Source of the DNA: Owenia fusiformis | Lineage: Eukaryota; Annelida; Polychaeta; Sabellida; Oweniidae | NCBI GenBank assembly: GCA_903813345.2 | Contig: CAIIXF020000011.1 | Span: forward strand, 18,149,754-18,213,753 | Length of the DNA: 64,000 nucleotides | Direction of reading: 5' to 3' | Shown: positions 8,650 through 50,700 of the stretch, piece by piece | How positions within the stretch are numbered: position 1 is the stretch's first letter | Layout: every line of letters begins with the position of its first letter | Notes under the pieces: model-generated | Seen by the model: the letters and a program-made list of their open reading frames with translations, nothing else | What the model was told of the DNA's origin: nothing | Databases searched by the model: none | Program-made: the position numbers and the translations under genes

Positions 8650-8731
8650 ATTTGGAAGACCTGGGGTAGATTGTCATACTGGACATCCAGATGAGGTTGC
8701 TGTCATACAAATACTCTTTTTAATCAATGAG
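8650..8731 (+). CDS. STXBP5: Tomosyn exon W1 (WD40 propeller 1)
   Basis: 82 nt, entered at phase 2 after CATTCGACTCAG and left at phase 0 through GAG|GTAAGT. Encodes FGRPGVDCHTGHP...ILFLINE, aligned to human FGRPGVECYCQHD...LQFLINE. The last 44 nt and the donor are the seed of the 53-bp array that follows. Confidence 0.9.
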
Positions 8732-11700
8732 GTAAGTCCCCAGATGAGGTTGCTGTCATACAAAGACTCTTTTTAATCAATGAGGTAAGTCCCCAAATGA
8801 GGTTGCTGTCATACAAAGACTCTTTTTAATCAATGAGGTAAGTCTCCCAGATGAGGTTGCTGTCATACAAATACTCTTTTTAATCAATGAGAAAAAAAAT
8901 TAATCAATGAGGTAAAATACTATTTTTAGTCAATGAGGTAATCTTGAGGTTGCAGTCATACACATACTGTTTTTAATCAATGAACCAGAATGAGGTATTC
9001 TCTCATAAAAACTCTTTAATTAATGAGGTAAAACACTTTATTCAATGAGGTACATCTTACAAATATTCTTAAATCAATGAGGTAAGTACAACAGACGGTT
9101 TTACATTTATATAAATACTCGTGAACTGACTTCATGAATAAAACATTTTAGATACATTTAAGAAATAAAATATTTAGCAAAATGTATATACCCCAAAGAA
9201 TCAATTGTTATTGCTAGAAGGCCTCCCAATCCAAAATCATGTCAAGCAAATCTTCCCAAAAATAGTGTTCATAAATTAACTTTTTACCTATAAAGTCTAA
9301 AAGTATTTGTTTCTATTCCAGGGGGCTATGATTACAGTATGCTCCGATGACACTTTACATCTCTGGAATTTACGTCAAAAACGACCTGACATAGTTCATT
9401 CACTGCGGTTCCAGCGGGAGAGGTGAGATTTTGCATTATAACCAATGTTAGATAATAGCACAAAAACCCTACTAGCTTTCAATTTAACTTCTCCTCGCTT
9501 ATCCTTTGTCTAATCTAACTCTCAACTCATTTTGTGACGTAACTCTGTTTAAAGAGTCAGGATCAGATCTAGCAGGAAGGCAAAAAATTGTTTCAATTTT
9601 AGAATTTTTCCGGCTCATGTCATTTATTGTCATGTCTACTTTCTAAAAATCCCCAAAGTGCACACTTTATTTCATGAAAACTAGATTTTTACAATAATGT
9701 ATTCTTTTTTTACAATTTTTAAGAATGGTAAACCATTCTTATTATTTGATAGACTTTAAACATTTTTCACCCCTTTTTGCACTTTGAATCCATAATAACT
9801 TCACCAATTTATAACATATCGTGAATCTTTTGGGAGATATTGTATTTGTGATTGTAGGGAATGTATTGGTAGGTCAATTGTACATATTGCTTGTAACTTT
9901 GTCACCCTTATCGATCTGATTCTGCCTTTAATTTGAGAAAAATAAAGAGATAATGTTTATCAATCCTGAAATAAACAACACTTAGATTTGCTTCTTCTTA
10001 CTTATGGTACATTTTGAATTGTTGTTTATAGATATAAGGAGTCTGCCGAATATCCCCAAAAACATTTTTACCCTGACCTCTCAAAGCAAAGTAAAATAAC
10101 TACAAATATTAAACTTGTGCAAACATTTTTGCAAACCCTTATTTTCTTATGGAATTTTGATGAGACGCCCATTGTATTAGCTCTGGGGAGAAGTGCAAAT
10201 ACTGATCATCTACCATACTTATCTATCTTAAAAAGCAAATTGTTAAATAACATTTTAAATTTTGTTTTGAAAAAATATATCTTTGTGCATGTGCCAAAGT
10301 TACACGTTCTGGTATTTCCTGCCAAGAAATTGACTCATTAGAGCATTTTTTGAATATTATTAATTTATACGTTTAGTATATATGCCCATACAATTATTAA
10401 TGATACCTGAAGACCCTGGGAGAATCTAACCATAATTGTTAATATGACTTTTAATGGTTGATACAACAGTTGAATAAAACAAGCATTGAATGGTGTAATT
10501 GTTACTAGGTGTATGTTTGAAAAATATGTGGTCAGATATTGTTGGCTTATATATGTATACCTGGTGTTAGTAATAGCTTATACTAGCTATATTTATGGCT
10601 TATACTGGGTGTATTCATAGCTTATATTGGCTATATTCCTAGCAAATATTGGCTATTTTCATAGCTTATTGATGCTGTATTGAAACTGGCATTTATATTT
10701 GTGGCTTATATTGGCTGCATTTATGGCTTAAATTGGCTATATTTATGACTAACCATATACTGACTGTATGTATGGTTCATGTTCAGGGCTTATACTGGCA
10801 ATATATTCAAGGCTAATATTAGCTAATATAGTGACAAATTAGATGGCTTATTCTAATGGCTATATATAATACAGAGCTGAGTATATTTCATAATTCATTG
10901 CTTATAATGGGAAAATCTTGGCTTATACTGGCTATAGCCATGGCTTTTATTGGCTATTTCATCTCTTCATACTGGGTATATTCATGGATGGCTGATACTG
11001 GCTGATACTGGCTAAATGCAAGCTTATACATGGTGTTATTCTTTCTACTTTGCAGCATATCAATGTTCCGTCAAAGTAATGCCAGTAGCAGGACTGATAA
11101 TCTAGATACTGAGGCAAATGATGTCAAGTCAAGGTAGATGTGCTTGTATTTTGGCATCGATATTTATTGTTGTTCACTATTGCACATTCTGCCTTGATGT
11201 TTTGTTTATTGTTACTATGACATATTTTGCCTTGATTCTTCCTTTAGTTGTTTACCATTGTGCATTCTGCCTTAAGTTGATGTTTACTATTGTTGTTCAC
11301 TATTCTGCCTTGATGTTTACTTTTGCTGTATACTATCATTGACTTATTCTGCTTGATGTTTACTATAGTATACATTATGATACATTCTGCTTTGACATTT
11401 ACTTTTGTTTACTATGACATATTTTGCTTAAAAATGATGTTTACTATTGTTGTTTACTATTCTCCCTTGATGCTTACTTTTGGTGTCTACTATCTGTAAC
11501 ACTTTCTGCTTGATGTTTTCCAAAGTGTATATTATGATACCTTCTGCCTTGACATATACTTTTGTTTACAATGACACATTCTGCTTAAAGTTGATGTTTA
11601 CTATTGTTGTTCACTATTCTGCCTTGATGTTTATTTTTGCTGTTTACTATCATTGACTTATTCTGCTTGATGTTTACTATAGTATACATTATGATACCTT

Positions 11701-14700
11701 CTGCCTTGACATTTACTTTTGTTTACTATGACATATTTTGCTTAAAAATGATGTTTACTATTGTTGTTTACTATTCTCCCTTGATGCTTACTTTTGGTGT
11801 CTACTATCTGTAACACTTTCTGCTTGATGTTTTCCAAAGTGTATATTATGATACACTCTGCTTTGAGATTTACTTTTGTTTACTATGACACATTCTGCTT
11901 AAAATTGATGTTTACTATTGTTGTTTACTATTTTCCCTTGATGCTTACATTTGGTGTCTACTATCTGTAACACTTTCTGCTTGATGTTTTCCAAAGTGTA
12001 TATTATGATACATTCTGCCTTGACATTTACTTTTGTTTACTATGACACATTCTGCTTAAAGTTGATGTATACTATTGTTTCTGCTTGATGTTTTCCAAAG
12101 TGTATATTATGATACACTCTGCCTTGACATTTACTTTTGTTTACTATGACACATTCTGCTTAAAATTGATGTTTACCATTGTTGTTCACTATTCTGCCTT
12201 GATGTTTACTTTTGCTGTTTACTATCCGTGACTTATTCTGCTTGATGTTTACTATAGTATACATTATGATACATTCTGCCTTGACATTTACTTTTGTTTA
12301 CGATGACACATTCTGCTTAAAATTGATGTTTACTATTGTTGTTTACTATAATACATCATTGGCATCATTATGTCATCACCATCAAGTAAGACGATGGGTA
12401 GCTCTATGAAACCTCCTCTGTTGGAGCAATTATTCAGAGATAGCTTTTACCTTTATGGATTAGGTAAGTTGTATTAAATAATAATTACATGGTAAGTGAG
12501 TTCTATATGTGATACAATTATAAGCTGATATGGGTGTAAATCTAAAAGACAAAATTGAAGGTTGCATGTGAATTGTATCCCAGCTAGAATGATACCTACC
12601 GAGTGCTTATTATTTAGTAAATGAACAATATTTTAGTGCTAAATGAGCAATTTTTTAGTACTAAAAGAGCGCTCAAGTAATTTAGTATTCGGCATATCTA
12701 CCTGTGTAGGTATGCTACGATGCTTGTTTTATTTTTCCCATATGTTGTTTGTGTGGGTTAGGTATGCTACGATGCTTGTTTTATTTTCCCCATATGTTGC
12801 TTGTATGGGGTAGGTATGCTACGATGCTTGTTTTATTTCCTACCCTCCCCATAATGCATTCACTCAACAATGTGTTAAGAATGGAGTGGGTAATGGGCTT
12901 AATGTAAACCTAAGAGCATAAAAAGCAATTGTAGCATTTAGCTGGCGTTATAATTCAAAATCTCACACCATTAAAGCATTGAATCCTGCTAGTGTGATAG
13001 AACTATGAATAAATTGTCACCCTATGCCCATGCTGTTATTTGAGTTAAAGCCTTTTTGCATTACGCAAAATATCAAACATTCCAATTCTATATTCTTCTT
13101 AATGTATACAGGTAGATATGCCGAATACTAAATTAGTACAAAATTAGTACTAAATTAGCACTCGTGACATGAGTACTCATGAGTGCACTTTTGCCAGAGT
13201 GCTAATTTATTACTACTTGAGTGCTATTTTAGTACTAATTTTGTGACAATTTTGTGTTTATTTTAGTACCATTTTAGTAACAATATTTTAACCGATGATC
13301 TAGTGCTACTTGAGCGCTCTTTTAGTACTAAAAAATTGCTCATTTAGCACTAAAATATTGTTCATTTACTAAATAATAAGCACTCGGTAGGTATCATTCT
13401 AGCTGGGATACAATTCACATGCAACCTTCAATTTTGTCTTTTAGATTTACACCCATATCAGCTTATAATTGTATCACATATAGAACTCACTTACCATGTA
13501 ATTATTATTTAATACAACTTACCTAATCTTTCACTTATTCTAGTTAACAAAGCAGTGTATATATATATGCACTTTTCTCAAGAATAGAACAATATGGTGT
13601 CTGTCATTTTGTTTCCTAGCTTCAACCCATTACATGAAATAGCTACAGGAATGGGAATTTTCAGAAAAACTTCATGATATATTTACCCATGTTTTCGTTT
13701 AGTTAAAATGTAATTTATTGCGTATTCTATATTTTACTTCATCAATTAAAAAAAATTATCAACATTTTAATTTGTGAGTACTAATCTATCACTCGTGAAA
13801 CATGTGCAACAAATTAGTACTCTTAATATGAGCGCTCATTGAGTAAAATCAATGAAATTAGCGCTATTTTATCACTCATCATATGAGTACTCATTTAGTA
13901 CTAAAACATGCAATTAATTAGTGCTCATAGTATGAGTGCTCATTGAGTAATGAAAAATCAATGAAATAAGCGCTATTTTATCACTCATCATACGAGTACT
14001 CATTTAGTACTAAAACATGCAATAAATCAGTACTCATGTCACAAGTGCTCATTTAGTACTAATATTTACTGAAATGAGTACTCAATTAGCGCTAAAATGC
14101 CATGAGTACTTTTTTAGTACTCAGCATATCTCCCTGTGTACCCCACACAAACAACATATGGGGAAAATAAAACAAGCATCGTAGCATATCTACCCCACAC
14201 AAACAACATATGGGGAAAATAAAACAAGCACCGTAGTATAACCTAACCCACACAAACAACATATGGGGAAAATAAAACAAGCATCGTAGCATACCTACAC
14301 CACACAGGCATTATGATGCTGGCCCAAGATTATTGCACTTCATATGATTCTATTCTTAGTTCTCAAGTGATATCTAAAAACGTGTTTAGGAAATATTTTA
14401 TTCAAATGTGTTTTTTGTTGTTTTTGTATTTATACCATTTTCCTGTTTCTGAATGCTAGGAAATATTTTATTCGAATGTGTTGTTTGTTGTTTTTGTATG
14501 GATTTCATTTTCCTGTTTCTGAATGCTTTTGGTAAATACCATTACCCAGTGATCTCCAGTTCAAAGAGGATGCTGCAACACCCAGTTAAAATATGCACCC
14601 AGTTGATATTTTAAGAATATCAAAAACTATATGATACTTTCACTGATTATGCATCATTCTGTTTTACCATTAGATTATAAGATACACACTCTACTATACC

Positions 14701-17700: not shown

Positions 17701-20700
17701 TTTCTCCTCACCCATTTGTATTCCCAATGGATTACTGAGAATTTTTACAGAATCTTGGCACTTGAATAAAATGAATCCTCGTTCCCTTCAATTTGATGAA
17801 TTGAAAGAATGTTATACTCCCTGAAGTACATGTTATGATTGTATATCTGTTATACTCCTCATTTTAAAATTTCCAAGAGGATATTTTCATTTATTCTCCA
17901 TAGATGAGCAGTTTGTTATTTATTTGAAATTGATGTTCAACTTTTTGCCAAAGATGATTTTATATTATATCATGTTTGTTTACAGATCAAGAAAGACACA
18001 TCCAGGACCTATTGTTCATCTGAGTGACTGTCCAATAGATCCAAATAAGGTAAATGTAATGTGCTAATTTTGTAGATCTTAATATGGTAATAACGTCAGT
18101 CACTTGGTTAAATGTACGAACTAGCATTCAAGTATACATGTAGTACTTCCTTAAAATTGTGGTTTGCCTACCATTGAATAGAATTATTTGCCTCTAAAAT
18201 GATGACTAAAATGGATACACAGCAAATTTGACCAGTGGTAACCAACGATATAGTAACACTTAATCTCGACAACTTTGTGTATTTTTAAATGCCCCCGTGT
18301 ACTGTATCCTTGGGTACTACTACATAATATTACAAATTAAAGAATTAAAGCTTTAATGTTTTTGCAATGGTTTCCTTAGCAACAGGTGGTTTTCTGTAGT
18401 TGTTTATATCAAATTGTTCCATTGTTTTGAGGAATTTCGCATTTGTTGTTCTAATGTAATCCCCAGTCATTGGACCTAATTAGATCATCAAATATGGAAG
18501 TCCATAGTTATCACTTGTACAAGTGAGGCTTAAAGATTTCACATAAAATCCATGATATTTTACATTTTCTCAATCCTTCAAGCTATTATATTCCAATTTA
18601 ATCCGAAATAAACAGGAAGATCAATCCCAGCAGCCCTTGTGTTAATCATGTGACTACATTAACCAATCAGAATTCAGAATGGAAGTAAAAGTCTTTGGTT
18701 ATTTAATGAATTATTTTAAGAGATAACTGGAGAATCAGAAAGTGTCATAAACCCAATCCCCATGCAGCGTGTTATGTTTCACGCTCGCTGCTCCGAATCT
18801 TTGAATTATTTTATTGAAATTGAGTTCTCATGTCGTAAATCCCAAATGAGTTTGATTGGCTGGCCTATTAACGTACTAGACATGTTCCATGTAATGTTAT
18901 GTTCTTCCAGTTCAGCGGTGATTCAGTTTTTATCAATAAATTCCATGCATATGATACTTATTTTGTCTATCAGAGAGTTTTTTATTCATTAGTCCTCACA
19001 TATATGCTCTCTCAACTTGTAGCTAAACAGGGGTGAGGTTATTTGCTTCAAAATGGTTTTGATTTGAAAGTACATGTTGATATTTTAAAGAAGGTATAGC
19101 TAGGTTTAGCTGTTTGATCACATATTGATTCCATACTCATGAATGTCAGATGTACTATTGGATATCATTGTGCCTATTTTTCACCCAGAATCTTTGCATC
19201 GTATTTTATTGTTCTAGCATCAGGAATGTAGAATATAGCATAAAACAGAGAGTTAAATATCAGATAGTAATTACAAGGTTAATTAACGACAAAACCCTGA
19301 AAATGTAATCTGTAACTTGAAGTGCCACACCTATTTTTCTACTCAGCATCTCTTAGCATCACATTCCAGTGTTTTCCCCAGGATTTTTTCTTTAGTGGGT
19401 GCAAAATTCTCATTTTCACAATTCAGTCCAAAATATGCTAATTTTACATGATTTTTCTCATTTTCAAGTTGGTGCAAATGGATTTTCAGATGGTTGCAAG
19501 CCTGTTTTATTACATTATCTATGACCTATAACAGTTATCTAACATTTCTTTTATAATGGCCATCGCAAAAACTCTACATTGGGTTTACAACGAAGAAAAC
19601 CACATTTTTGTAGCTGCAAGTTGAGAAAACCTATTTCAGTTGTCCTTTAATATTGAACCAACAATATTGTGAGCAACTGAACTAGGTGGTGACATTTTGT
19701 CATGTTAATGCCTTGTCTTATACTGGAATATCTTGAAACAATATCTGAAATCACTTGTTCTCGTTCTTCAGAAAAAAATGTTTTGAAAAAATTGGTATTC
19801 ATCAAATTACTCCTTTGAACCTTGGAACAATTTGTGTCATTTATTTTCAATTATGTAGCAGACTCTAAAGCTTGTTGCTAAGCTAATGATTGTTGTGTTA
19901 GCTGTAATTAAGGTGATATTTTTCAAAACAATAGATACTTCTATTTTTGTTATAATTAATTCAGCCAGACCCCCAGATGGAATCCTTGACATAGCTGGGG
20001 TTCAATGTTTTTTTGTTCATTTTTGTAATGTATGGTATTCTCTCTAATGAGCACACTGTGCACTTTCCAGATTGAAACTTAAAAGACACTCCAATAAGCG
20101 CATATACAAAAAAATTAGAAAAAATATTGCTGATAATCTTTTTAAGTTGTTATCACTAAGGTTTACACACTCTACATCTATACATCTCCTGTTTTTCTTT
20201 TTCTGCATTAAATATAATCATCAATCGATATCTATTGTAAATGATGGAAACTAATCTTGAGACCAAATTCATCATAAAAGTTGCATGTGTGCTTGCTCAT
20301 TTAAACTGTGCGCTCAGTAATTAGACTCATGGTGAGCTTGTGGAATCATGTACTTATCTCTCTCACCCGTCAGTCCATCCATCTGTCCATACAAGAAAAT
20401 AACTTTGTGAATCCAAATTCTTCTAGTTCCAAGAATTTTACCAGAATTAAAGTGTTATCAAACAGGCAGGTCCTTGTTAATGAAATATGTGAATCTCCTA
20501 TAAAAAAGAAATTGGAAAATATTGGTTGAGTGATAGATTAGTAGAGTGATTGACCGATTAATTGATTGGTTGATTGATTGATTATTTTTTGTTGTTGTTT
20601 TTGCAGCTGTTGATAGGATTTGAGAGCGGTGCAATATCATTATGGGACCTCAAGACTAAGACTGCAGAGCAACACTATGGTGATGGTTCAAATGTGGTGA

Positions 20701-23700
20701 GTTATCAATACAACTATGGGTAAATGGTTCAAATGTGGTGAGTTGTCAGTACTGATTTACAATTACCGGTAAATGGTTCAAATGTGGTGAGTTATCAATA
20801 CTGATTTACAACTATGGGTATATGGTACAAATGTGTTGAGTTATCAGAACTGATTTACAACTATGGGTAAATGGTACAAATGTGTTGAGTTATCTATACT
20901 TATTTTAAAGTATGGGTAAATGGGTTAAATGTGGTGAGTTATCAATACTGATCTACAACTATGGGTAAATGGTACAAATGTGTTGAGCTATCTATACTGA
21001 TTTACATCTATGGGTAAATGCTTCAAATGTGTTGAGTTATCTATACTGATTTACATCTATGGGTAAATGGTTCAAATGTGGCGAGTTATCTATACTGATT
21101 CATAACTATGCGTAAATGGTTCAAATGTGGCGAGTTATCTATACTGATTTACAACTATGGGTAAATGGTTCAAATGTGTTGAGTTATCTATACTGATTTA
21201 CAACTATGGGTAAATGGTTCAAATGTGTTGAGTTATCAGTACTGATTTACAACTACGGGTAAATGGTTCAAATGTGTTGAGTTATCAATACTGATTTACA
21301 ACTATGGAAAAATGGTTCAAATGTGGTGAGTTATCTATACTGATTTACAACTAAGGGTAAATGGTTCAAATGTGGTGAGTTATCAATACTGATTTACATC
21401 TATGGGTTAATTGTTCAAATATGGTGAGTTATCAGTACTGATTTACAACTAAGGGTAAATGGTTCAAATGTGGTGAGTTATCAATACTGATTTACATCTA
21501 TGGGTAAATGGTTCAAATGTGGTGTGTTATCAGTACTGATATACAACTTGGGTAAATGGTTCAAATGTGGTGTGTTATCAGTACTGATTAACAACTATGG
21601 GTAAATGGTTCAAATGTTTTGAGTTATCAATACTGATTTACAACTATGGGTAAATGGTTCAAATGTTTTGAGTTATCAGTACTGATTTACAACTAAGGGT
21701 AAATGGTTCAAATGTGGTGAGTTATCAATACTGATTTACATGTATGGGTTAATTGTTCAAATATGGTGAGTTGTCAGTACTGATTTAGAACTATGAGTAA
21801 ATGGTTCAAATGTGGTAAGTTATCAATACTGATTTTCAACTATGGGTAAATGGTTCAAATGTTTTGAGTTATCAGTACTGATTTACAACTACGGGTAAAT
21901 GGTTCAAATGTGGTGAGTTATCAATACTGATTTACATCTATGGGTTAATTGTTCAAATATGGTGAGTTGTCAGTACTGATTTAGAACTATGGGTAAATGG
22001 TTCAAATGTGGTGAGTTATCAGTACTGATTTACAACTATGGGTAAATGGTTCAAATGTGGTGAGGTATCAGTGCTGATTTACAACTAAGGGTAACTGGTT
22101 CAAATATTGAGTTGTCAGAATTGATTTACAACTATTGGTAAATTCCCTGTATACCAGCCTTGCCAGCTTTTAGTGCAAAAACCAGATAATAATGAGCAGT
22201 AATTTATTTATTTATATAATGGTATCAAATGAATTTTATAATACAGATAAATAAATCTGGGATGTGAAATGCTATTAACTCTTTATCTTTAATATCCATA
22301 AAATATACCAAACATTTTTTTGTTGATGGTGTTGGGTGTTAGGAGTTTGGTGTTCCATGTCTGCAACATATGGCAGGTGGTGACATTTTGCATGTTAATG
22401 ACTTGTGTTTCTCTTTTTGTGATTGCTTGAACATGTGTCGTATTATATTCTGGGATATTTTCCTCTGATATTACTTTTGAAAATGACAAAAATGAAAAAA
22501 AATATCTAAATGGGGAAGACATCATGAAATATAGTGTCCTATGTAAACTTTTTCCAGTCAATTTTCTATCTATTCCAGCCATTAAAGTCAGTAGCGTGGC
22601 ACCATGAAGGTAAACAGTTTATGTGCAGTCACACAGACGGCAGTTTAACAACTTGGAACATAAGAATACCTCAAAAGGCCAGCATCATGCGACCACATGG
22701 TAAGTAAGGATGATGTGAAAATATTACAAGATTTCTGGGTAGTTATCCCACAGAATGAAGCTACTGACCACAGGCCCGTAGCCAGGATTTGCCAAGGGGG
22801 GGGGGTCAGTTTTCAAAAATTTCCAGGGGGGTTCACATTTGAAAATTTTGGCCAAAATATGGCTAAAATCACTTGAGAAGTGCTCAAAATGGTGAAAAAC
22901 TGCATGGTTTTGAAAGAATTTTTGGCCAGGGGGGGTTCGCCCAAACCCTGCGAACCCCCCTGGCTACGGGCCTGGACTAGCTTTTTTGTAAGATCAAGGG
23001 GTTGAGTTAAGGTTCTGAGAGCAGCTGGTGAAAATGGCATTATGGACCAGTTGCCATTTTACTTTTCCATACATACTAAAAAATAACCTGGTCTGCATTC
23101 GAAAGTGACCTGGCAAATGACAAGTGGACATGCCCTTAACTCGAGCCCTGTCTGTAACTGGCGGTTACTATTAACATAGGGGTAAAGTATTTGGACATAA
23201 ATCAACTTCTCCAAAGTATGGCTATATTATACTCAAATTGAAGGAATTTTTGAGTAGGGTCACAGTTATGGATCACAATTATTGGAGATCTCTTCAAAGT
23301 ATTGTTATTACAATATACTGTATTAGATCTCAAATATTGTTTTGTTTTTATTATGATTTTTGCACTTGAAACTCCTAAATGGCAGTTAAAACAGTGGAAA
23401 TTCTGATATAGACTCTATCTCTTGTTTATGTCTTTTAATATCTGGCAATTTAATCAAGGGTAGATTAGATGGTAAACATTTCATTGTGACATATATAGAT
23501 TCATGAATATAGTGTTCATTGGGGCTACTGCCTAGAGTTGCCGATTTCTAGTCTAGTACATTGAAAGCTAATCATCTCTATGAATGGTTGAAGGCCACTT
23601 TAACTTCTATTTCACTGTTATATTGTCTAATCCTTTTTGATTTTGTTGTTTAATCTGCATACTATGTATTGTATCAAATACTTGATAACAACAGTGACAA

Positions 23701-26700
23701 TACCACCAAACATAACCAAAGAGCACACGGCCAGTGTAATTATATCAAGAAGATAGTACTGGAAAAAATTTAGGTTGTTTTCTGCATCGGACCTCAAATG
23801 ATGTGCCCCTTTGTGTTTGATGACATACTCTATCCAATACATAAGCTTTTTCTTCGGATCAATAGGTTGGCTATGGTAGATATCAGCAGCTTTATTTGCA
23901 TTATCTTTATAGCGTTTATCACTGATCACCTCCTGCATGGTGTTCTTAAGCTTTTCACTCGTCATTTCTGTCAACAAAACTGTTTTCCCAGACTTAACTT
24001 TGTGAGTTAGTTTGTGGCAGTTAAAAGGCTGGTCCCAAAAGAATGGCACTCCAACAATCGGTGTAGCATAATGCAATGCTTGGAATAATGCAGAGGCTCC
24101 ACAGTGTGTCACAAATAACTTTGTCGAGGGATGTGCCAACAGACTCTCTTGAGGGTACCATTTTTTCACGATGGTATTATTTCCAAGTCCTTTTGGTAGT
24201 GGACCCTCATAGCTCCATATAACAGTCTGAGGCATTGCAGCGAAGGCAATTGCGAACTTTTTACTTGTTTTAGGATCTAATCGTCGTTGCATTGATCCAA
24301 AACTAGCAACGATTATGCCATGTTCTCCCGCTTTATTCATGATATTACTGTACTCTGTATTCAAAGGTTCAATTTCAGACATTAAGAAAAATCCTTCAAT
24401 AGATATGACATGTGGCATATATGGGGCAGGGTAATGGATAGCGTCATTTCTATTCATCATGAATAGTGATATAGTCTTGTATGCATCTCGTATATTGTAA
24501 CATGCATCACCGTAGCCATGTTTTCTGCAGATAGAGATAAATCTATTGTACATATTGTACCATATCCACTTTACTCGCAAATACTCTACAACATTCATAA
24601 TCCGTTCTGTAAATGTCATTTCATCAGTGAACATTGCAGGGAAAAAAGCATGAACAAATGCCAAATTAAATTTTGGTGAAAAATTGGCATCAAGTGACAT
24701 TGGACCCCAGTTACAGTACACAATTAGAGGTATGTCAAAATATGCAGAAACCATTCTCGGGAAAAATACACCTTCGTCTGCAAAAATTAAATCAAATTTT
24801 GATGCTGCTATTTCATTCCATACATCCTGGTCTTCTAATGCAAATGTTAAGCTATCTTCAAAAGGTTGCCTCATGATGTGTAAAAGAGTGGCATATGGTT
24901 TGTATATCATAGAGTCGAGCCATTCCTGATTTACCGAGGATTGAGCTGTATCCGGATCAAAGGCGGGTGTCTTGTATTTTAAAACTTTAAATTCAGATTC
25001 CAAGTTGGAGCCCTCTGCTTGCTTAAACAGAGATTCATTCTCTATCCTATCTGACACGATTACGGTCACGTCATGACCAGCTTGTAGTAACATTCGCCCA
25101 ATTCTTAGAACATTTCTAATTCTACTATTATAGCCTGTATCAAATGGTGCAAGAAGTATATTACTGCTGTTAGAAAACTCCAAACAAAGTGTCATCAGAA
25201 GGAGAAATTTGATGAAAGCCATAATTCATGTGCTTCAGTATGTGCCTTGCAATGAGAATGACGACATACATGTGATGAACGATGAACACTTGGTTATCTT
25301 GAAGATTGACCATAATGACCAATGCCACATGTTTTTACTACGTAAATTAATATCACTTACCAATTATGTCATTACAATATGCTAAAAGCTACCATAGTCA
25401 CCTTTTATTGGAACAATTATTTTCTACTTTCACTTTCACTTTCGGTTTCCCGGAAGCCCCGCCCACTTTACGTCATAGTTGCGCATGCGCACCATTCATT
25501 TTTCTACCATTTTGAAAGTCACACAAATTTTTCAAAAGTGCGATAAATTGGTCCAAAAACGAGCGTTACAAGTCTACTATGTCGACAAATACAACGCAGT
25601 TCGATACAACAGAAGGGGTTAATACCCAGGGTGATCAGCGAGTTAGCCCAGCGCGCTCAAACAAAGGTAAATCACCGGTTGTGAAGTCTAAAGTTCTAGA
25701 AAAAGTTCGGCGTGGCCGTAGAGAAAGTCGAAGTAATTCAACTTCAAGTGGGTCAGACTCTGACACTTCGTTTAAAAGACGTAAAAAACATCGTCACCGA
25801 GATTCGGCTTCTCCTAAACGGCGACGTCACAGAACTAAATCTATTTCCTCAAGTCCGAGGGGTAGATACAGATCGAGATCCAGGTCTAGATCCAGGTCTA
25901 GATCAAGGAGATCACGTTCTCATTCCTCAAGTCCGAGGGTGAGATACAGATCTAAAGATAGACTTCACAATCGTAAAAGGTCTAGATCTAAGTCCAGGTC
26001 TAGATACAAGTACAAACATAGATCAAAGTCCAGGTCTAGATCAAAGTCTTTGTCCTCAAGTCCGAGGAAAAGACACAAATCTTCACATCATAGATCTGCT
26101 TATAGGTCTCATAGATCTCCTTCTTTAAGTCCAAAGAAGAGGTACTATCGTAAACAATCTCCTTCTATAAGTCCTAAAAGGAGACGTTACAGAAATGATA
26201 AAGATTCACCCAGGTACGATAAGTATCAATGGGAGAGAGATCAATTTATCAATCCGAGAATTGATCAAAGACAGGAAATGTTTCAGAATTTCTTGCAAGA
26301 CCAGCAAGTTCTGAGAGCGATGTATGCAGGATCATCTGCATACATACCTCAAAATATTTCCAAGAGAACACAGTCAAGGCCATGGTCTGTGAAGGATGAT
26401 CACATTCAAATAAATGATGATCAACAATTTAAATCACCTCCTACTCTTACAAGAACCATTTCTCTTAATAGAGATGATGATTCAGTTACTATAGAGTTGG
26501 AGAATGATGGTGAACAGGAAGATCCTGATACTAAGCCATCAAATGAGGTGGCAAGAGCCAAATTAGAATTTTTGGCAGCCACTGAAGTCGTTAAAAAATC
26601 TTTCCCTGAGATAGCAGAGATGTCAACACCTAAGAATAAGGTCAAATCTTGGTCTCTAGTGAAAGATAAACCTTCAGTATTGACTAATTCTTTACAACTG

Positions 26701-29700
26701 CCACTTTGCCCAGGTGTGAAGAATAACTTGATTGAAGGAGTCAAAATCTTTAACGACTTACCCCAGGATGCCTTTTCCAAAGATTTACCAAATCTTTGTA
26801 AGAAAAGATACAAACTTCCTAAAGCCTTATACCAAATCGTACCAGATGAGGATAAGTTTGAACCCTGCAAAATAGACGAAGATTTTTCGTCCATTGCCAA
26901 AACATTCAAGAAGAATGATTCGCAAAAGGCCAAATTAGACCCTCATTTTGCGAATCTGTCATTGAAGACATTGACAGATTGGGAGGGTGTGTCTAGAGAA
27001 AATCTAGTTACTTCCTCTCACACTGAATGGTTCATTGGTTCTGTTAAACCACTGTTTGAGGATCTGTTAAAAGAAGAAGGAATGGATCCTTCTTTATGTC
27101 AGAAAATAGAACAGGCTTTGACATTAATCAAAGCAGCTGGTCACTGCATTGAGGATGGGTATCGTCTTAATGCTTTTTTGCTCAATCAAATAGTAGCATG
27201 CAGGAGACATTCTTACCTTTCCATGAAGGCGGATAAAGATATCCCCTTTGCAGATCTCAAAGAACTTATGACTCTTGAGCCCCAAACTGGGAAGTTGTTT
27301 CAAGACAACTTGGCCAAAGTGAAAGAAAATTTGAGGAAAGCTAAAAATGATATAGCGCAGAATCAAATTCTAGACTACACCTCTAAAAAGGAGGACAAAA
27401 ACAAACCCAAAACTTCCAATAAGTTCCAGAACAAAGACAGTTCTTTTCGTGGAAAAGGACGGGGTTCAAAGAGTTTTCCTCGAGGAAGAGGCAGAGGTAA
27501 ATCTGTCGGTAGAGGAAAGTCCACTGATAAACAGTGACTTATTCCAGGTCGAAAATTACCTCCATACATCGTCAAACGACAAAGTGGGTGGGAGGTTGAT
27601 GGAATTCTGGCAGGAATGGAGTCAAATAAATGCTTTGGCTAAAGTGATAAACCTTTTAAAAGAAGGCTATTATCTTCCATTCAAAGAAAAGCCAAAGTTA
27701 CAAAAGACTCCCCTTTGGTCAGAATTCCACAATCCTCTAAAAAGAGCGGCAGTTTTCGACCTAATCAACACTCTCCTAGAGGAGAATGCTATAGAACAAG
27801 TAGAAGACATTTCTTCCCCAGGGTTTTACAGTCGAATATTTCTGGTTCCAAAAAAGTCATCCGACAAATGGAGACCCGTGACAGACCTGTCAACTCTAAA
27901 TCTATTTCTGAATGTCCCATCATTCAAGATGGACACTCCAGAAATCATCAAAAGAAATCTGGAGAAGGGAATGTACATGACTTCTATAGACCTTCGACAG
28001 GCCTATTTGCATGTCCCTATCGCCAGGTCTCACCAGAAATATCTGAGATTTGCCGTGAAAAATCGGGGAGTCTTCCAATGGAAATGTCTTCCATTTGGTC
28101 TAGCAACAGCTCCTTTAATTTTCACAGAGATAGTTTCTCAGATCAAAAAATTCCTTCATTCAATAAATATAAAGATGTTCCAGTATCTCGACGATTGGAT
28201 GATAATAGCATCATCACACCAAGTAAGTTCAGAGAACACAAAGACTGTGTGCAACTTAACGAAAAAGTTAGGCTTTCTCCTAAATCTGGAGAAGTCAGAG
28301 TTAAATCCAACTCAGCAACTTACTTACCTGGGCTCACTTTACGACCTAAAGAAAGGTCTAATTTTACCAACTCAATACAGAGTAGAGTTACTCGAAACAG
28401 AGATACAGCGTTTCCTAGCGAAACCTTTACAAACAGCAAAATTCTGGAAAAGAATTTTGGGTCTCCTAGCGGCAACAGAGAAAATTGTGCCACTAGGCCT
28501 AGGGAGATTGTTCATGAGGGAGATGCAATACGATCTCCAGAGAAATTGGAATGCCTCAAAGGACATGAACATTTTGATTCCATGGTCCAAAATGACAAGA
28601 CAAGACTTAGTCTGGTGGCTAAACAAGGACAATCTTGTGAAAGGTGTTCCAATTCAAATGCAGAATTCAATAGATCTAAAACTGTTCACAGACAGTTCAA
28701 TGACAGCTTGGGGAGCACATTTAGAAAATCTAGAAGTTTCAAAGATGTGGTCCAAACAAGATCTGAACCTGCACATCAACATGAAGGAGTTGATGGCAGT
28801 AGAGTTAAGTCTCAAACATTTTCAACCTCAAGTACAGGGGAAAAGGATACAAGTATCCTCAGACAATGCATCCACTGTGGCCTATTTGAAAAATCAAGGC
28901 GGCACACATTCTTACCAGTTATTCAAGGTAACAAGAAGAATTCTGCTATGGAATCAAGTCAACAATATAGAAATGACAATACGTCATATTCCAGGGAGAT
29001 TGAACATTCTGGCAGATGCTCTGTCCAGGAAGTCTCAGATTCTGTCGACAGAGTGGAGTCTGAAAGATCAAATTTTCCATGCAATTTGCAGGAAATGGGG
29101 AAAACCTCTAGTAGACCTTTTTGCGACACGACACAACACGAAATTACCTCTATTTGTGTCACCAGTCCCGGATATGCTAGCATGGGAGGTAGATGCTCTA
29201 AGTATGGATTGGAAAGGTCTGTGGGCTTATGCCTTTCCCCCGACACCATTAATCTCTCTAGTTCTGAACAAGATGTTGCAAACGACAAATGTAGAAATGA
29301 TTCTCATTGCCCCATTATGGGAGAAACAAGCATGGTATCCCAGACTGTTAGAGTCTCTTGTAGAGAAACCTCTACACATTCCAGTAGTTCCAAAAATGTT
29401 GAAACAGACAAGACAATGGGTATTTCATCAAAATCCCCAAATATTCAAGCTTCACGCTTGGAGGCTGTCAAACAATCCTTTAAAAACAAAGGCTTTTCAA
29501 ACAAGGTTGCAGAAAGAATTGCAAAACCTCAAAGAAACTCCTCGATCAAGGTATATGACTCGAAATGGAGAGTCTGGGCTAGTTGGTGTTCTGAACGGAA
29601 TAGAGATCCATTCAGAACTTCTGTTACTGTAGTAGCCGATTTTCTGAATTGGTTATTTGAAGATAGAAAACTTCAACCAGTTACTATAGCAGGATACAGA

Positions 29701-32700
29701 ACAGCCTTAGGTAATACTCTGAAAGAAACTTCGAATTTAGATATTGGTTCAGATCCTTTGATTTCTTGTTTGTTATCTAATTTCAAACAAGAAAGACCGA
29801 GGAATATCTCTAATAAAATTCCAAACTGGGATTTAAATGTGGTCCTACAAGGTCTTATGAGACCTCCTTTTGAACCTATCGAGATAGTTGATTTAAAATT
29901 TGTCACGTGGAAAACAGTTTTTCTCACTCTGTTAGCATCTGCAGCAAGACGCAGTGAGATACATGCCTTGGTGCTTAAGAAGGTGTCACATAGTATTGAC
30001 TGGCAATCCATTTTTCTAGGATTCAAATCTGACTTTGTATCCAAGACCTTACTAAAGGCTGGAGGTACTGTCCTGAAGGACATTGAGATAAAAGCCTTAA
30101 CAGGTTTTTTGACACCAGATCTTCAAGATGATAAGCTTTTATGCCCTGTTAGAGCATTAAAAGTTTATATGAGAAGATCAAAGCCCATGAGAGATAAACA
30201 ACAAAGATTGTTTATATCATACAAGAAAGGCTATAAAGAAGAGATACATGCTAACACAATAACTTCATGGGTGAAGAATTGTGTAGCAAAGGCATTACAG
30301 TCTTTTCCCAAGCATGCTGAGCAGGTTTATAAGGTTAAAACTCACCAACTCAGAGCCTTATCAACTTCCATTGCTTTTGCGAAGAATTGCACTCTAGACG
30401 AGATTATTCAAGCTGGAAGATGGACTAACTTTAACACGTTCGCTTCATTTTACTTAAAGGAAGTGTCCTTGAAAGACTTCGAAGGCAACCACTTCATTGC
30501 TGCGAACAAAACTGTTTAAGTAAGTTTAAAAGTCTTATAGTTCATTATCCTACCAATAAAAGGTGGAAAGTTTTTTGTTATTCATATCCATTTATTTGTT
30601 ATCAATAATTAAGATATGAATAACAAAGGAGTGTGCTTGGATAAATTATTTTCACTTGTTACTTTTAGTTTTGCGTTGCAAAATTATTTAACTTAATATC
30701 CTATGGTAAGGATAGTGATTCAAGTACGAATTCTAATCAGTTAATGCTGTTTTTGGAGTATTTTATTTTCTAAGCTAATATCCCTCCACCTGCTCTGGTG
30801 GGATTCAGCATATTGTAATGACATAATTGGTAAGTGATATTAATTTACGTAGTAAAATTCCAAAATTTTATGTAATTTTGGTTTTTATAAGTTAATTATA
30901 CTTACCTATTATGTCATTACATCAAAAGCCCTCCCTTGCCACCCCGCTTATCAGCTTTAAAATAAGCGTTTCACCTAGTGAAAAATGAATGGTGCGCATG
31001 CGCAACTATGACGTAAAGTGGACGGGGCTTCCGGGAAACCGAAAGTGAAAGTGAAAGTAGAAAATAATTGTTCCAATAAAAGGTGACTATGGTAGCTTTT
31101 AGCATATTGTAATGACATAATAGGTAAGTATAATTAACTTATAAAAACCAAAATTACATAAAATTTTGGGAATTTGCGCTATCTACTTTTGATAAAATAC
31201 ATGTATACTATGAATGACCTGAATAGAAGTGGATCGATTGCAAACATCCATTGATAGTGGTTGTCCAAAATGGTTGTCCTAAAGAGTTCATTAGGCCATG
31301 AAAAAATATTTTGTTTCTCATCTGCAGGCTTTCAAATTTCAATCCATCCTCCATATTTGCCTATGCATTTCCAGAGCAAAAAAGGCGCTATTTTTTTGAT
31401 TTGCAATATGAACTGTGGTTAAAAGAACAAAACAGGTTGACCATCAGTGCCTGTTTCATAGTTACATGTATATTGCAAATTAATATGAAAAAGAAAAATC
31501 TGATTTTTAAGATATAAGAATGCCACTGAATTTTTAAAACTTTGAGGAAATATCAGTGTCGCTTTGCCTCATGTCCCCTTTTGCCCTTTGCACCCATGTA
31601 CAAGGTGATACAACTGATATAAATTACATAGGCCTAAATAGACCTATTTCTGATTATTTTGAGGTAGATTATTACAAATACACTCAAATGACTTTTGATA
31701 AACATAGTCATTGGTGTTACTGTTTGTAGACCTTGAGGTCAACTATTTTTATCAACATCTACCTTATTATCCCAACGGATGGAGTTCAGTAGGGATATAG
31801 TGAAGCCCTCCATCCGTCAGTTAGTCAGTCAATCCATCTGCCCATTCGTGTATCCATGGGAATATAACTTGAATACTGGTTGAAGGATTTTCCCCATATA
31901 TGTTGGAAAGATGTACATTGGTAGTATGTATTAAAATAAGTCAAGGGGTTTTCAAATAGAATATGTCCATTCTTAATACATGTAAGTGGCGATTCTCCCT
32001 ATATATATTGTGACCAATGTAATTCATTCTAATAATAAACAAGATTGTGTTCATTCATGTTAACTTTACCACTAAGTTTCCGTTAAGGATATCACTAATT
32101 TGCAGTTGATCTCAGTAACATGTAATATTTTGTCATTTCAGCCAAATTAAGCAAAGACAACAAACCAGAGCCATGTAGACCTATTAGTAAATTAGAGTGG
32201 AAGACAAATAAAACTGGGTAGGTCAGAGATTCTAAGTGTTAAAGAGATTTTGTGGTGACATATACCATATACCATATATGGTATATAAGTTGTGACATAT
32301 TGTTATGGTCTCTATTTTTATAAAACCAGTTGGCATCCAACATTTGTAACAAATGGTAGATGGTGACATTTTGCATGTTTATGCCTTGTTACATAAATCT
32401 TATTTCCTTGCAGTGAACAAATCATCGTGTTTAGCGGTGGGATGTCGTATGATAAAGCAGGGAAAATGCCAAGTATAACCGTGATGCATGGGAAAAGTAC
32501 AACAGTTCTAGAAATGGAGCATCAAGTTGTAGAATTCTTCTTACTTTGTGACTCTCCTTATAATAATGGTAAGTGATATACTAAATAGGCCCGTAGCCAG
32601 GATTTGCCAAGGGTGGGTTCAGTTTTCAAAAATTTCCAGGGGGGTTCACATTTGGCAATTTTGGCCCAAATATGGCCAAAATCACTTGAGAAGTGCTCAA

Positions 32701-44700: not shown

Positions 44701-47700
44701 TTTGCTAGCTAACTAAAAATCACAAGTATAAAATAATATTTGAGTAGCTGTGTTATCTATTTCTTTTAAGATTCTAATTTGAAAGATAGTTTAGTCTCAT
44801 ACAATTCTATACTATTAATAATATATGTTCATTTTGTATCAAAACTGAAAACTGAAATATGTGATGCAGTGCCACCTATATTTATTTAACAGAACAAGCG
44901 TGGGATATTTCAGTTTTGATACAATCAATAAATTGCAAAGATCACTTGAGTCTCATGCAAAAGCTTTGCTGTTGATGACAGGACTGCTATAGGGAAAGAA
45001 AAAGCCGTTATAGAGCAGCAAAATAGGCTTGCAAAATTGCACATTTCCACTTTTTTCACCTTTTCACCTATCACATTATCAAAATTCCTCGCTTCCAGTC
45101 ACATGACCTCAATTGATCACACTGCAATTATATAATTCTTTATTATTTGCATACATGCTATAACATTAGAACCATTTTAGGATTATAATCACAATGGGAC
45201 TCTCTTAATTATAACATTGAATTTGAACATAACTCATAAGTGGGTTGTATATTTAAGAGACTCATTTTGCACAATGCATTATAATTATATTATTTATCTC
45301 ATACAAATATATTAATTTACATGAGATTCATAATATAAATACACAGCCTAATCACAGCAATACAGTTCATATATATGCTAACAAAAGAATTCAAGAGTTA
45401 AACTTGAGTACTATATAAAATGTTTAAAACACAAAGAATTCCGAGATGACATTTTTGAATGTATTGTTAGCATAGTAGTCCAACCCGCAAAGTTAATAAT
45501 TTCAAATTAGCTAAGTGAAGCAACCCACAAAGTTAAAAAAAATTGATTCATAATTTCAAACTAGCTAAGTGAAGCTTCAAACAGGACAGAGCAAATGTCT
45601 ATATTCTTCAGTAATTGTCTTTCTATATTGAAAAGTTACATTCTTGAAAAATCTCGACATTGTGTGTTGGATTGAACTGTAGCCCACAGTGCTAACTACT
45701 GAGTAGTGAGTGAATTTTGCGTTCTATTCTAGCGACGTCTGGTAGTAGTTATGGGGCTACTCTCAGTGTGGACTCATGTGGGTCACACACAAGTGGTGAG
45801 CATTCACGCAGATATTCCAGCTACCTGGTTTCTCTACCTGATTTTTACACGTTGTTCAACAGCAGCGCACTCTTTGAATATGCTTCATCACTGCCATCTA
45901 TATAGTTCTATAGCAACCTGCATATATGGAGTGTCACTATGGTGACATCAATTTGTGAAATAAAAATCATTTCATTGGTGATTGTTTATAGCGAAATAGA
46001 CACGTCAAGCGTACTGACATTTTATATATGCAGGAATGCATGATTACGATATCACATTCATACCAATAAGCGTACATATTTCCATGGTTTCATTTTGCGT
46101 TTCATTTCTATATTTTTCGAGGAATGTACTGTGCTCTTATTGAGATGAATGTGTTTACTGTTTTGATTGACAGTTGATTTCAAGTCAATTTTAAGATTTT
46201 TATCACTTTTTATGTTGTAAGTAAATTAAAATCTCTAAATTTTTCAATGTGCATTTCTTGATTTTAGCATTCATATTGTATGCTAATTTGACACTATACT
46301 TGTACTACTTCATTGTTCGTTCTAAACATTGTAATGCTTAAGCATAACATAAATATTGATTACTAATGAGACTAAAATGCAAGAATAAATTTTAACATTT
46401 GTAAATAAAGTATCCTTTGAAACATACAAACTTTCAAAAAAAAACATAAATCAGCTACCATTTTAAAGCTTTTCAAAATTGTTATATTTCTCCTTAATAG
46501 GCTATGATGACATTATCTAAAAATTGAGCTTTACTAACCCATTCAAGTGATTGAAAATTGGTATATTTCTTCTTAATAGACTATGATGACATTATCTAAA
46601 AATTGAGCTTTACTAACCCATTCAAGTGATTGAAAATTGACATATTTCTTCTTAATAGACTATGATGACATCATCTAAAAATTGAGCTTTACTAGCCCAC
46701 TCAATAGTGATTGAAATTATTCACATTTTCTTCATAGCTTATGATGACATAATGACTATAGAAAACAGTTATCAAAAAATTGAGCTTTACTAACCCATTC
46801 AGTATTTGCAATTCAATATTTGCGTTTGAGATTCATAATTCATGAAAAGCAATCATATTATATGATAAAAAATGGATAAATTGAATGTGTTTTAATTTTA
46901 GGTGTATTTGATGTAAAGTAATCTTTGAATGCATCATCTCTGTTTATCTTTAAATGTCTCTTTATTCTGTGTGTCTTTCATTCATGCTAACATGATAATT
47001 GTTATTTTCATCTTTCTGAACCTTTAAAAACTACACATTTCATAATAAATCTTTGAAAACCTTAAAATTCAATTTTAGAGATTATATTCCAAAATGATAT
47101 ATTAAGCTAAAAGCTTGCTGTATATGACTGTCGGCACTCATACACACTCATTAATGAATGTTTGTCAGTTGTACTTTTTTGTTTTCGATGTTATATTTTT
47201 TATCAAATTATAACCTTCCAATAAACAAATAAAAAAATCATATAAATGTCTAATTGTGTGTCTCATATCATTCTCTCATTCCAAAAACACCATTGAAATA
47301 TTTGCAACATTTAATTTACATTATACTACTAATGTTTTTACAACATGACTTTGGGGCCTTATAATCATAGTCGGTCAATAAACTATGAGTTAAAAACATT
47401 TTAGGGATTTTTTGACATCAGTACGTGGATTTTTAACCACTAAAGTGATAGACTCCCTAGACTTGTTCTAGAATTCCCCTAGCCATGTGTTACTGTATAT
47501 ATGTAGATGTGTAAATGCTAATGTTTGATTCTGGCAGATAAAACGGACAGTTCTTCATTCTCGCGGTCCCGCAGTTCCAGCATGTCCAGCCTAGAGAATA
47601 TCACAAAGGAAGCCATTCAGTGTATAGTGTTTGCTGACTCCTTTACAAGAAAAACAGGTAAAGCTAGCAGCTGATTCCATGTTGCTGGTTTTCTTACAGA

Positions 47701-50700
47701 GCTGGCATCTTATTCAATGCATTTCCTTGTATTTTCACCAATACAGGAATAATGCAGGCTTTTGTATTTGGCAAGCTTTAGGTACTACAGTCCATCTTTA
47801 ATTTTATAAATTACACTTTTTCATTCAAACGGTACAAATCTGAGAAATCCCAAGAAGTGAAAATAAGAATTTAAAGATGGAAGCACAGTACCACTCCCAA
47901 GCAAAGCCAACCCAAAGTTCCCATCCTTTGTTTCCCATTTTATCTGAATCTATCTTTATATGTGTACTTTTCTAGACAAAGTTGACGGCAATCACCCGTC
48001 ACGATCCCGGAGCCCCAGTACATCAAGTTCTGAGAATAATGTCACTAAAGAAGCTATCTCTGCTCTCTTATTCACAGATTCTTTCACCAATAAAACTGGT
48101 AATTTATATTGTATTGTGACATCACACTAGGATACCCTGGAAATAGCTACTGCAGAAACTGTTGTCAACAAAAAATGCAGACATATTTTTCACTATAGGC
48201 TCATCTTAGCGCGTGCACCAAAGGTCTGATACTGAAAGCTTTATCATAATGGTTAATATTAAATAGTGCCTCATATCTGAAACAGACGATATTTCGACTA
48301 TTTAAAAATGAGCATTGAACATGTGTTTTGCATGGTAATTGGAGGAACAAGAGTGATTTCGGATATTTTTTGCAGTGTCGAATTTTCTTTTTTCGAAATG
48401 ACCATAATAAAGAGACTATTCTGACAGTCTTTGATGATAAAAGATGAAGGACTATTCTGTGATTAATAGCAATAATTGGTCAACATGGGTATTGTATATA
48501 AGTGAGGAGAACTCAGTCAATCATCACATTCGCTATTGTTAACGACAGATTCTGCAGTCACAGTTTCCATGGTATCCTGGTGTTTCATTGTGAAATACTT
48601 CTACAATGTAATACATATCTCAATAACTATCTTAAATAGTGAAAATATGAAGTATTTTCCAATGGTGTTTGATAAGCATGTAGTGGTTTGAAATTATGAA
48701 CTAGGTGCCAGTTTTCCCTTAGACCCCGATTGTTTTGATATGTCTCCTCTGGTTTGCTCAGGTGCTTTTTGTAGGCTTTCTAGATGTTGTAAAAAATCCT
48801 TCATCAATTTGATCTCAGTAATGCCACAGATTTAGACCACTGAGATCCCATTTTAGACCAATGATGTCACATTTTTAGACCAATGCGATCACATTTTAGA
48901 CCAATGAGGTCACAATTTAAACCAATGATGCCACATTTTTAGACCAAGGTGATCACATTTTAGACCAATGATGCCACATTTGTAGACCAATGAGGTCACA
49001 GTTTAGACCAGTGATGCCACATTTTTAGACCAGTGAGGTCAAATTTTAGACCAATGATGTCACATTTTTTGACCAATGAGGTCAAATCTTAGACTGATGA
49101 TGCCACATTTTTAGACCAATGATGCCACATTTGTAGACCAATGATGCCACATTTTTAGACCAGTGAGGTCACAGTTTAGACCAATAATGTCACATTTTTT
49201 GACCAATGAGGTCACATTTTAGACTAATAATGCCACATTTTTAGACCGATGAGGTCACATTTTAAGCTAATGATGCCACATTTTTAGACCATTGAGATCA
49301 CATTCTGGACCAACAATATTTTATTTATTTTTAATCCAATGAGGTCATATTTTACACCATAATTGGATATTTTTAGATCAATGAGGTCACATTTTAGACA
49401 ATGAGGCCATATTTTGACACTAATAAAGCCACATTTTGACACCAATTGTGTCACATTTTACACTACTGAGGCTGCATTTTTACAACAGGAAGGCCACATT
49501 TTGGCACCAATTAGGTTTCATTTTGACAGAACTGTACCATACTTTTGACAAATTTTACTAGCACTATAGTAACATAGTTTTCCATCCTGTGTATGTTAGT
49601 AGAATATGCAACTTGACACCCTCCCCATTGTTCTTTAGCCCCCAGTCTAGAATCACTATTCCTTGGTTATTTGGATCTACATTATTTATTATTGAATTAT
49701 TGAAATATTGTGTCAGATAGAAATACAATGAATATCAGCAGATAAAAGTAAACAATAATACATTGACACATTTGTCTTATTACCATTTATGATATTCATT
49801 TGCTCAAAATGTTATTTTTCCTGTTTTAGATAGCTACACATCACCGAGCCTGTGGGTGGGGACAAGTCTTGGGTCAGTGCTGGTCATTGCCCTCAATCTT
49901 CCCCCCTCAGGGGAACAGAGACTCACCCAGCCAGTTATGGTCTCCCCCAGTGGTAAGATACACAGATATTCTCAAATTACATACAGTGAAACCTACATAT
50001 CCGAACACCTCTCAATACAAACACTTTTTCTTGGTCTTAAACTTGTTATCTCCTATTGACTCGCATAGAAGAAAGAAGAGGAAACCTTAAAATGTGATCA
50101 GCTGCTAGTTGGCCCCCTTTGTTCAATTGACTTCAAATTTCTCATTAATATTTCATGTTTTTTTATTGTTATCGTTTATATGTCATGTGAAAATATTTTT
50201 TACTTGGTAATAATTTAATTCTGTTTGTTCTTTCATTGACCAAGTTCATCCATAACGGTTATGTAATGACAGGTTTTGGTTAATATTTTATCCTATATCC
50301 AGGACTGACTTTACATAAAGAGGATATTCTATACTATTATTTATATAATTTTCTGTACAAGGTTTAGTTCAGGATAGTGCATAATAAAAATATTTCTTAA
50401 TCCTATGTAGGTACAATATTTCGGCTTAAGGGCACAATCCTAGCAATGTCATTCCTCGACTGCAATGGGGGCCTCATTCCTACTTTGTCAGATACATGGA
50501 AAGACAACACGAAAGAAAGTCGCGATGAAGTCAAAACTAAATCAAGAAGTAAGTTTATTAGAATGTATTTGGTGTGGTCATATTTTACAATTTGAGCTGT
50601 ATGTTATGGGATATCTAATCTGTATCTATTTAGGAGTGTAATCCCTATAGATGGAATATACTTTTCTTTCCATGGGTTAGCTTGTAATCTGGGTTTGAAT

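Follow-up and report, generated by a model that had tools for sequence, protein, structure and literature searches.

Exon W5 of a tomosyn-like gene in the annelid Owenia fusiformis is followed by a tandem array whose 49-bp unit carries the end of the exon and its splice donor. The array lies in a 64,000-nucleotide stretch of contig CAIIXF020000011.1 (assembly GCA_903813345.2, positions 18,149,754 to 18,213,753, forward strand), which is called the window below and in which positions are counted from its first letter. The array is real and, judged by its letters, fits the structural definition of a mirage, a minisatellite-like tandem duplication of an exon–intron boundary. It is probably a neutral minisatellite that was born by tandem duplication over the exon end and its donor. 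The exon-adjacent donor would do the splicing, and the downstream copies would be silent decoys. The array most likely has no function of its own.

Structure of the W5 array

The exon, its donor, the array and the next exon are arranged as follows.

20607–20696, plus strand: exon W5 of the tomosyn-like gene, assigned by homology; at least its last 14 bases belong to the repeat unit as its exonic portion
20697–20702, plus strand: true donor GTGAGT, copy 1, adjacent to the exon; assigned by donor anchoring and U1 pairing
20709–22143, plus strand: 49-bp tandem array in the W5 intron, 29.3 copies by Tandem Repeats Finder (TRF); 16 of 28 donor-anchored copies keep GT
22579–22699, plus strand: next exon, starting PLKSVAWHHEGKQF, at the acceptor side of the W5 intron; in frame with W5 and assigned by similarity

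Most of the tomosyn-like gene lies within the window on the plus strand, with exons placed from about 8650 to 59700. Placement relied on similarity to LLGL2 and LLGL1 chains and on a tblastn comparison with human STXBP5, the latter taken as a lead and not as a database result. Both similarities support W5 as an exon. It reads LLIGFESGAISLWDLKTKTAEQHYGDGSNV and ends GTG/GTGAGT in phase 0.

TRF reports a period of 49 bp, 29.3 copies, and 88% matches. Anchoring on the donor gives 29 copies, namely the exon border and 28 copies downstream of it. The first spacing is 41 bp, one is 48 bp, and all others are 49 bp. No higher-order period stands out, as lags of 1–13 units are all 0.87–0.89 identical. 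The last 14 bases of W5 (20683–20696) match the unit exactly, and about 13 further bases match with small indels. The original prediction of about 29 copies of a 49-bp unit that holds the end of W5 and its GTGAGT donor is thus borne out.

The 28 downstream copies carry GTGAGT in 12 cases, GTAAGT in one, GTGTGT in two, and GTGAGG in one, whereas 10 have TT and two have GC in place of GT. GT is therefore kept in 16 copies and lost in 12. Nine of the 12 GTGAGT copies read identically as GTGGTGAGT and three as ATGGTGAGT. The expected dozen or more intact donors are present, though 12 of the 28 copies lack GT. Selection against decoy donors was considered and found not convincing, with the +1 column the fourth most variable of 49. 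The claim that the array offers no matching acceptors was nearly right. A small weight matrix was built from those gene acceptors whose listed position carries AG, 17 of 26; on it the best AG sites of the array score 5.1, and these 17 acceptors score 3.8–14.1.

Searched against the genome, a 121-base probe spanning the W5 border hit its own locus and no other, in a search that skips common words and so gives a lower bound. An introner-like dispersed element would place the unit at many unlinked loci, and this lower-bound search with the W5-border probe found no such distribution.

Predicted U1 pairing and reading frame

Pairing with the 5′ end of U1 is predicted at −9.2 kcal/mol for the true W5 donor, the same value as for each of the 12 GTGAGT copies; the TT copies reach −1.6 to −2.7 kcal/mol. 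In this respect the 12 GTGAGT copies do resemble the true donor, as had been claimed. Translation past the true donor reaches a stop after 24 nt, ahead of copy 2, and splicing from any downstream donor would therefore be non-productive. Variable ends of W5 are possible, as is low-level use of the downstream donors, yet the extended forms would run into this stop in the intron.

A second array in the same gene

The tomosyn-like gene contains another array of the same kind.

8650–8731, plus strand: second exon with a donor-born array, ending ...GHPDEVAVIQILFLINE/GTAAGT; assigned by similarity and frame
8687–8891, plus strand: 53-bp array of 3.8 copies by TRF; the unit is 45 exon bases and 8 intron bases
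9322–9422, plus strand: exon after the second array, starting GAMITVCSDDTLHLWNLRQKRP; assigned by similarity and frame

Here the 45 exon bases are repeated together with GTAAGTCC, and the exon ends ...FLINE/GTAAGT. Copies 2 and 3 have a donor identical to the true one, with a predicted pairing of −10.7 kcal/mol. Decayed copies with donor-like sites continue past the array to about 9090, the last of them at 9082.

Similar arrays elsewhere in the genome

The assembly to which the window belongs (498 Mb) was searched for the donor word AGGTAAGT in regular spacing; the search touched 12 contigs of 31.9–62.2 Mb. Three words at spacings of 30–60 bp matched 536 times and the reversed word 352 times; at spacings of 30–51 bp the counts were 268 and 265. 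These are matches and not arrays, as one long array yields many matches. Among the matches listed were 6 arrays at 30–60 bp and 14 at 30–51 bp, one of them common to both, and the resulting 19 were fetched. Three neighbouring places on contig C6 are represented by one of the 19.

Read by eye, 17 of these 19 further arrays, all of which have three or more AGGTAAGT, begin where an exon appears to end; the sign taken was an AG resembling an acceptor, from which a frame stays open up to and into the first copy. L053 and L058 are the exceptions. Homology to a domain or a PDB entry was found for 10 of the 17. Nine of these ten are a tetraspanin (two exons joined), Muted, NIF phosphatase, UDP-glucose dehydrogenase (UGDH), mL52, I-set, a kringle below the cut-off, an Il2rg-like family, and neuronal calcium sensor 1. 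The tenth, a Ras match, is weak (E 0.027, below the cut-off), and a leucine-rich repeat match at L035 is also below the cut-off. Nothing was found for L060 and L061 in the PDB set; L061 may be DIP2-like.

Two loci carry arrays on both sides of the exon.

G000:C1:441000–445500: tetraspanin-like exon (L032); a 54-bp array on the donor side, beyond whose donor the frame stays open for 996 nt; over the acceptor, a 120-bp unit in 2.0 copies
G000:C2:33702500–33706000: UGDH-like exon (L036); a 130-bp unit in 7.0 copies over the acceptor and a 45-bp unit in 12.7 copies over the donor

The donor-side units of these two loci have lengths divisible by 3. L061 also has an acceptor-side array, of 24 bp and 3.2 copies, besides its donor array. 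The reading frame was scored for 18 exon-born arrays, L055 being the one that could not be scored. A stop lies ahead of copy 2 in 13 of the 18, including both arrays of the tomosyn-like gene.

Location of arrays relative to exon ends

An array of 29 copies is beyond chance, but its location on a donor could be chance. At 75% identity, local duplicates in the window include 2 of 25 donors and none of 26 acceptors, compared with 9.5% of 2504 positions; for donors, the values are 4 of 25 against 11.0% at 70% identity and 1 of 25 against 8.5% at 80%, and several borders in the list used for this test are off by at least one base. Gapped local alignment was run on a corrected border list, in which some acceptors lack AG at the listed place, and gave 2 of 25 donors and none of 26 acceptors against 12.5% of 600 positions at a score of at least 50, and 3 of 25 and 1 of 26 against 15.7% at a score of at least 40. 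Since donors show no excess in the window, coincidence suffices there, without any special cause. The claim that a satellite born on an exon border is unusual is left unsupported both by the window and by the 17 of 19 further arrays at apparent exon ends.

Arrays with a period of at least 15 bp make up 11.1% of the window; in a random sample of 140 kb from 14 other places (G+C 34.9%) their share is 12.1%. Coverage across the genome samples is very uneven, from 0 to 44% per 10 kb. None of the arrays in this sample contains a donor word.

For the genome as a whole, AGGTAAGT was compared with three control words. It occurs 19,107 times, above a Markov expectation of 10,091–14,679 (orders 1–4), and TGAATGGA, TAGGATGA, and GATAGTGA occur 33,894, 18,559, and 14,223 times, respectively. 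Arrays of period 30–51 bp were counted by eye; for the control words the comparison is one of counts, wherever their arrays lie. AGGTAAGT forms 14 among the matches listed, which reach C7:31.3 Mb and span 279 Mb, or 16 if the three C6 places are counted apart. The complete lists hold 9 arrays of TAGGATGA and 4 of GATAGTGA; for TGAATGGA there are 13 among the matches listed, over about 106 Mb, and three of these share one unit. Arrays amount to 0.13% of AGGTAAGT occurrences and to 0.048%, 0.028%, and 0.18% of those of the control words. Per occurrence, AGGTAAGT exceeds the pooled controls 2.0-fold (p 0.05). It lies above two of the controls pooled (p 0.003) and does not differ from the third (p 0.44), and the spread among the control words is as large as the AGGTAAGT effect. 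On the minus strand of G000:C1:192594–196103, a run of GATAGTGA at 59-bp steps forms a long 59-bp array.

In the 242 nt upstream of the donor, Pfam matches at E 0.05 were found for 9 of the 19 arrays, three of them below the curated cut-off (tetraspanin, kringle, and Ras), and for three of the 20 single AGGTAAGT taken consecutively along C1. The one-sided p is 0.03, or 0.01 without the reverse transcriptase among the single hits. The two sets were treated unalike: 15 of the 20 singles were searched and the other five were counted as no hit, three having no open piece of 12 residues and two only a short one. For six of the searched singles one piece per locus was used, that of L084 being a coding-looking piece and not the longest. 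Codon scoring failed to separate true donors from other AGGTAAGT, as the 95% line was passed by three each of the 17 known donors, the 20 singles, and the 19 arrays.

These figures hint that exon ends are over-represented among arrays genome-wide, although the control words disagree and the window shows no excess. A stronger proposal is that splice donors are preferred sites for the birth or survival of minisatellites, which would survive because the exon-adjacent donor always wins; up to some 30 near-identical donors would then compete and position alone would decide, in many natural experiments across the genome. We hold this tentatively and consider it rather unlikely. If it is true, an innermost-pair rule would be seen at the exons that have arrays at either end, namely L061 and the UGDH-like and tetraspanin-like exons.

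Origin of the W5 array

A neutral origin would begin with a tandem duplication that spans the donor and the 3′ end of the exon. Such a duplication would be nearly neutral because it leaves intact the exon with its acceptor and its adjacent donor, provided that splicing takes that donor. Further growth of the array, into the intron by slippage or unequal exchange, would then simply be growth of the intron. The exon-adjacent donor would be defined by the coding exon and its acceptor (exon definition) and used nearly exclusively, and the downstream copies would be removed with the intron as silent decoys. If a downstream donor were used, translation would soon meet a stop, and degradation of the transcript would be expected. 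The occurrence of an array of this kind twice in the tomosyn-like gene and the 17 of 19 further arrays at apparent exon ends support this account. So do the structure and register of the array, the lack of a donor excess in the window, the early stop in 13 of the 18 scored arrays, and the undisturbed splicing reported for mirages of amphioxus (PMC3087553, PMC3902484).

Several observations weigh against it. Thirteen downstream donors of W5 match the true donor in predicted U1 pairing, and the donor-like site at 9082 past the second array is predicted to pair better than the true donor there (−12.1 versus −10.7 kcal/mol). The frame is open into copy 2 in 5 of the 18 scored arrays, so that the products would not always be broken, and at the tetraspanin-like locus the open stretch runs to 996 nt. 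In minigenes, moreover, the intron-proximal of two identical strong donors can win.

The same 13 GTGAGT or GTAAGT copies, with pairing equal to that of the true donor, would suit a regulated set of alternative donors. Downstream use by part of the transcripts would lead to the stop and to their destruction, and array length would tune protein dose; the stop 24 nt past the donor would indeed make extended W5 forms non-productive. However, 12 of 28 copies lack GT, so the set has not been kept intact, and similar arrays are present in unrelated genes. We regard such dose tuning as improbable.

The order of events may also have been the reverse, with a donor-like intronic array coming first and capturing the exon end, in which case the present end of W5 would be repeat sequence. 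The W5 tail GDGSNV, two residues longer than the human protein there, and the exact match over only 14 exon bases are consistent with this order. At the second array, in contrast, a conserved stretch (AVIQ..FLINE) is encoded by the 45 bases from the exon, and exons of 10 of the 17 genome arrays have known homology. The conservation or homology of these exons argues that the exon came first at those loci, and at W5 either order would fit. An array-first origin has about as small a chance as dose tuning.

An assembly artefact or a wrong copy number is very improbable. Tandem arrays are often misassembled, but the copies differ among themselves (88% matches, no preferred higher-order lag) and the same architecture recurs at other loci. 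Least credible is sequestration of U1 small nuclear ribonucleoprotein, or binding of splicing factors, with effects on other transcripts: the intron does hold many U1-complementary sites, but U1 is very abundant, which makes the idea implausible on general grounds. A neutral minisatellite over the exon end remains our preferred account of the W5 array.

Other features of the window

Within the tomosyn-like gene, the consecutive stretches 47552–47671 and 47981–48097 both align with about residues 770–812 of the human protein, a tandem exon duplication and perhaps one of alternative exons. A possible extra exon of 78 nt (11056–11133, TTTGCAG/CATATCAATG...TCAAG/GTAGAT) lies between the RER and ITF exons and has no counterpart in the human STXBP5 sequence used for comparison.

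The intron after 22699 contains three long overlapping open frames of 673, 752, and 958 residues (25516–30516), which resemble a retroelement with reverse transcriptase and recombinase. In the same intron, a 532-residue open frame on the minus strand (23630–25225) resembles a UGT-type glycosyltransferase. Two 52-bp tandem arrays about 1.3 kb apart (12706–12838 and 14139–14306) have consensus units that are near reverse complements, an arrangement that appears as at the ends of mobile elements.

Comparison with known systems

Mirages were described in amphioxus as minisatellite-like tandem duplications of exon–intron boundaries; the genes are Adh3, the globins BflGb6 and BflGb9, and troponin C, with a similar case in PGBD5, and splicing is reported to be undisturbed (PMC3087553, PMC3902484). 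They have been proposed as a path to new introns (PMC3087553). Variation of array length among haplotypes or cells counts as a further trait of mirages. At W5, the unit spans the exon–intron boundary with at least 14 exon bases and the donor, and its copies carry splice signals. As in amphioxus, the unit is tens of bp to about 160 bp long, and donor and acceptor sides both occur. In contrast to the amphioxus cases, some loci here have far more copies, and the arrays are described from the sequence of one assembly. Tandem repeats of exon–intron borders outside amphioxus were not found in the literature, a search of open-licence papers only and hence no proof of absence; the present case probably extends mirages to another lineage.

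Two other systems are comparable. Tandem, overlapping alternative donors also place several donors near one exon end, but they lie 3–6 nt apart (PMC2423196), whereas the donors here are 41–53 nt apart in long arrays that arose from exon-border duplication. Intronic variable number tandem repeats that change splicing, such as those of ABCA7 and TERT (VNTR6-1), share the position of an intronic tandem array by splicing decisions.

Along with several other loci, the W5 array provides a natural test of how a donor is chosen, and it points to a wider set in the genome. Choice of the spliceosome among identical 5′ splice sites has been studied mostly with artificial minigenes. In O. fusiformis, natural exons of several genes precede up to about 30 near-identical, regularly spaced donors, some with copies of the acceptor upstream. 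Unlike the 3–6 nt donor pairs and like the amphioxus mirages, these arrays repeat the exon border itself and would offer a direct view of donor choice by position alone among identical signals.

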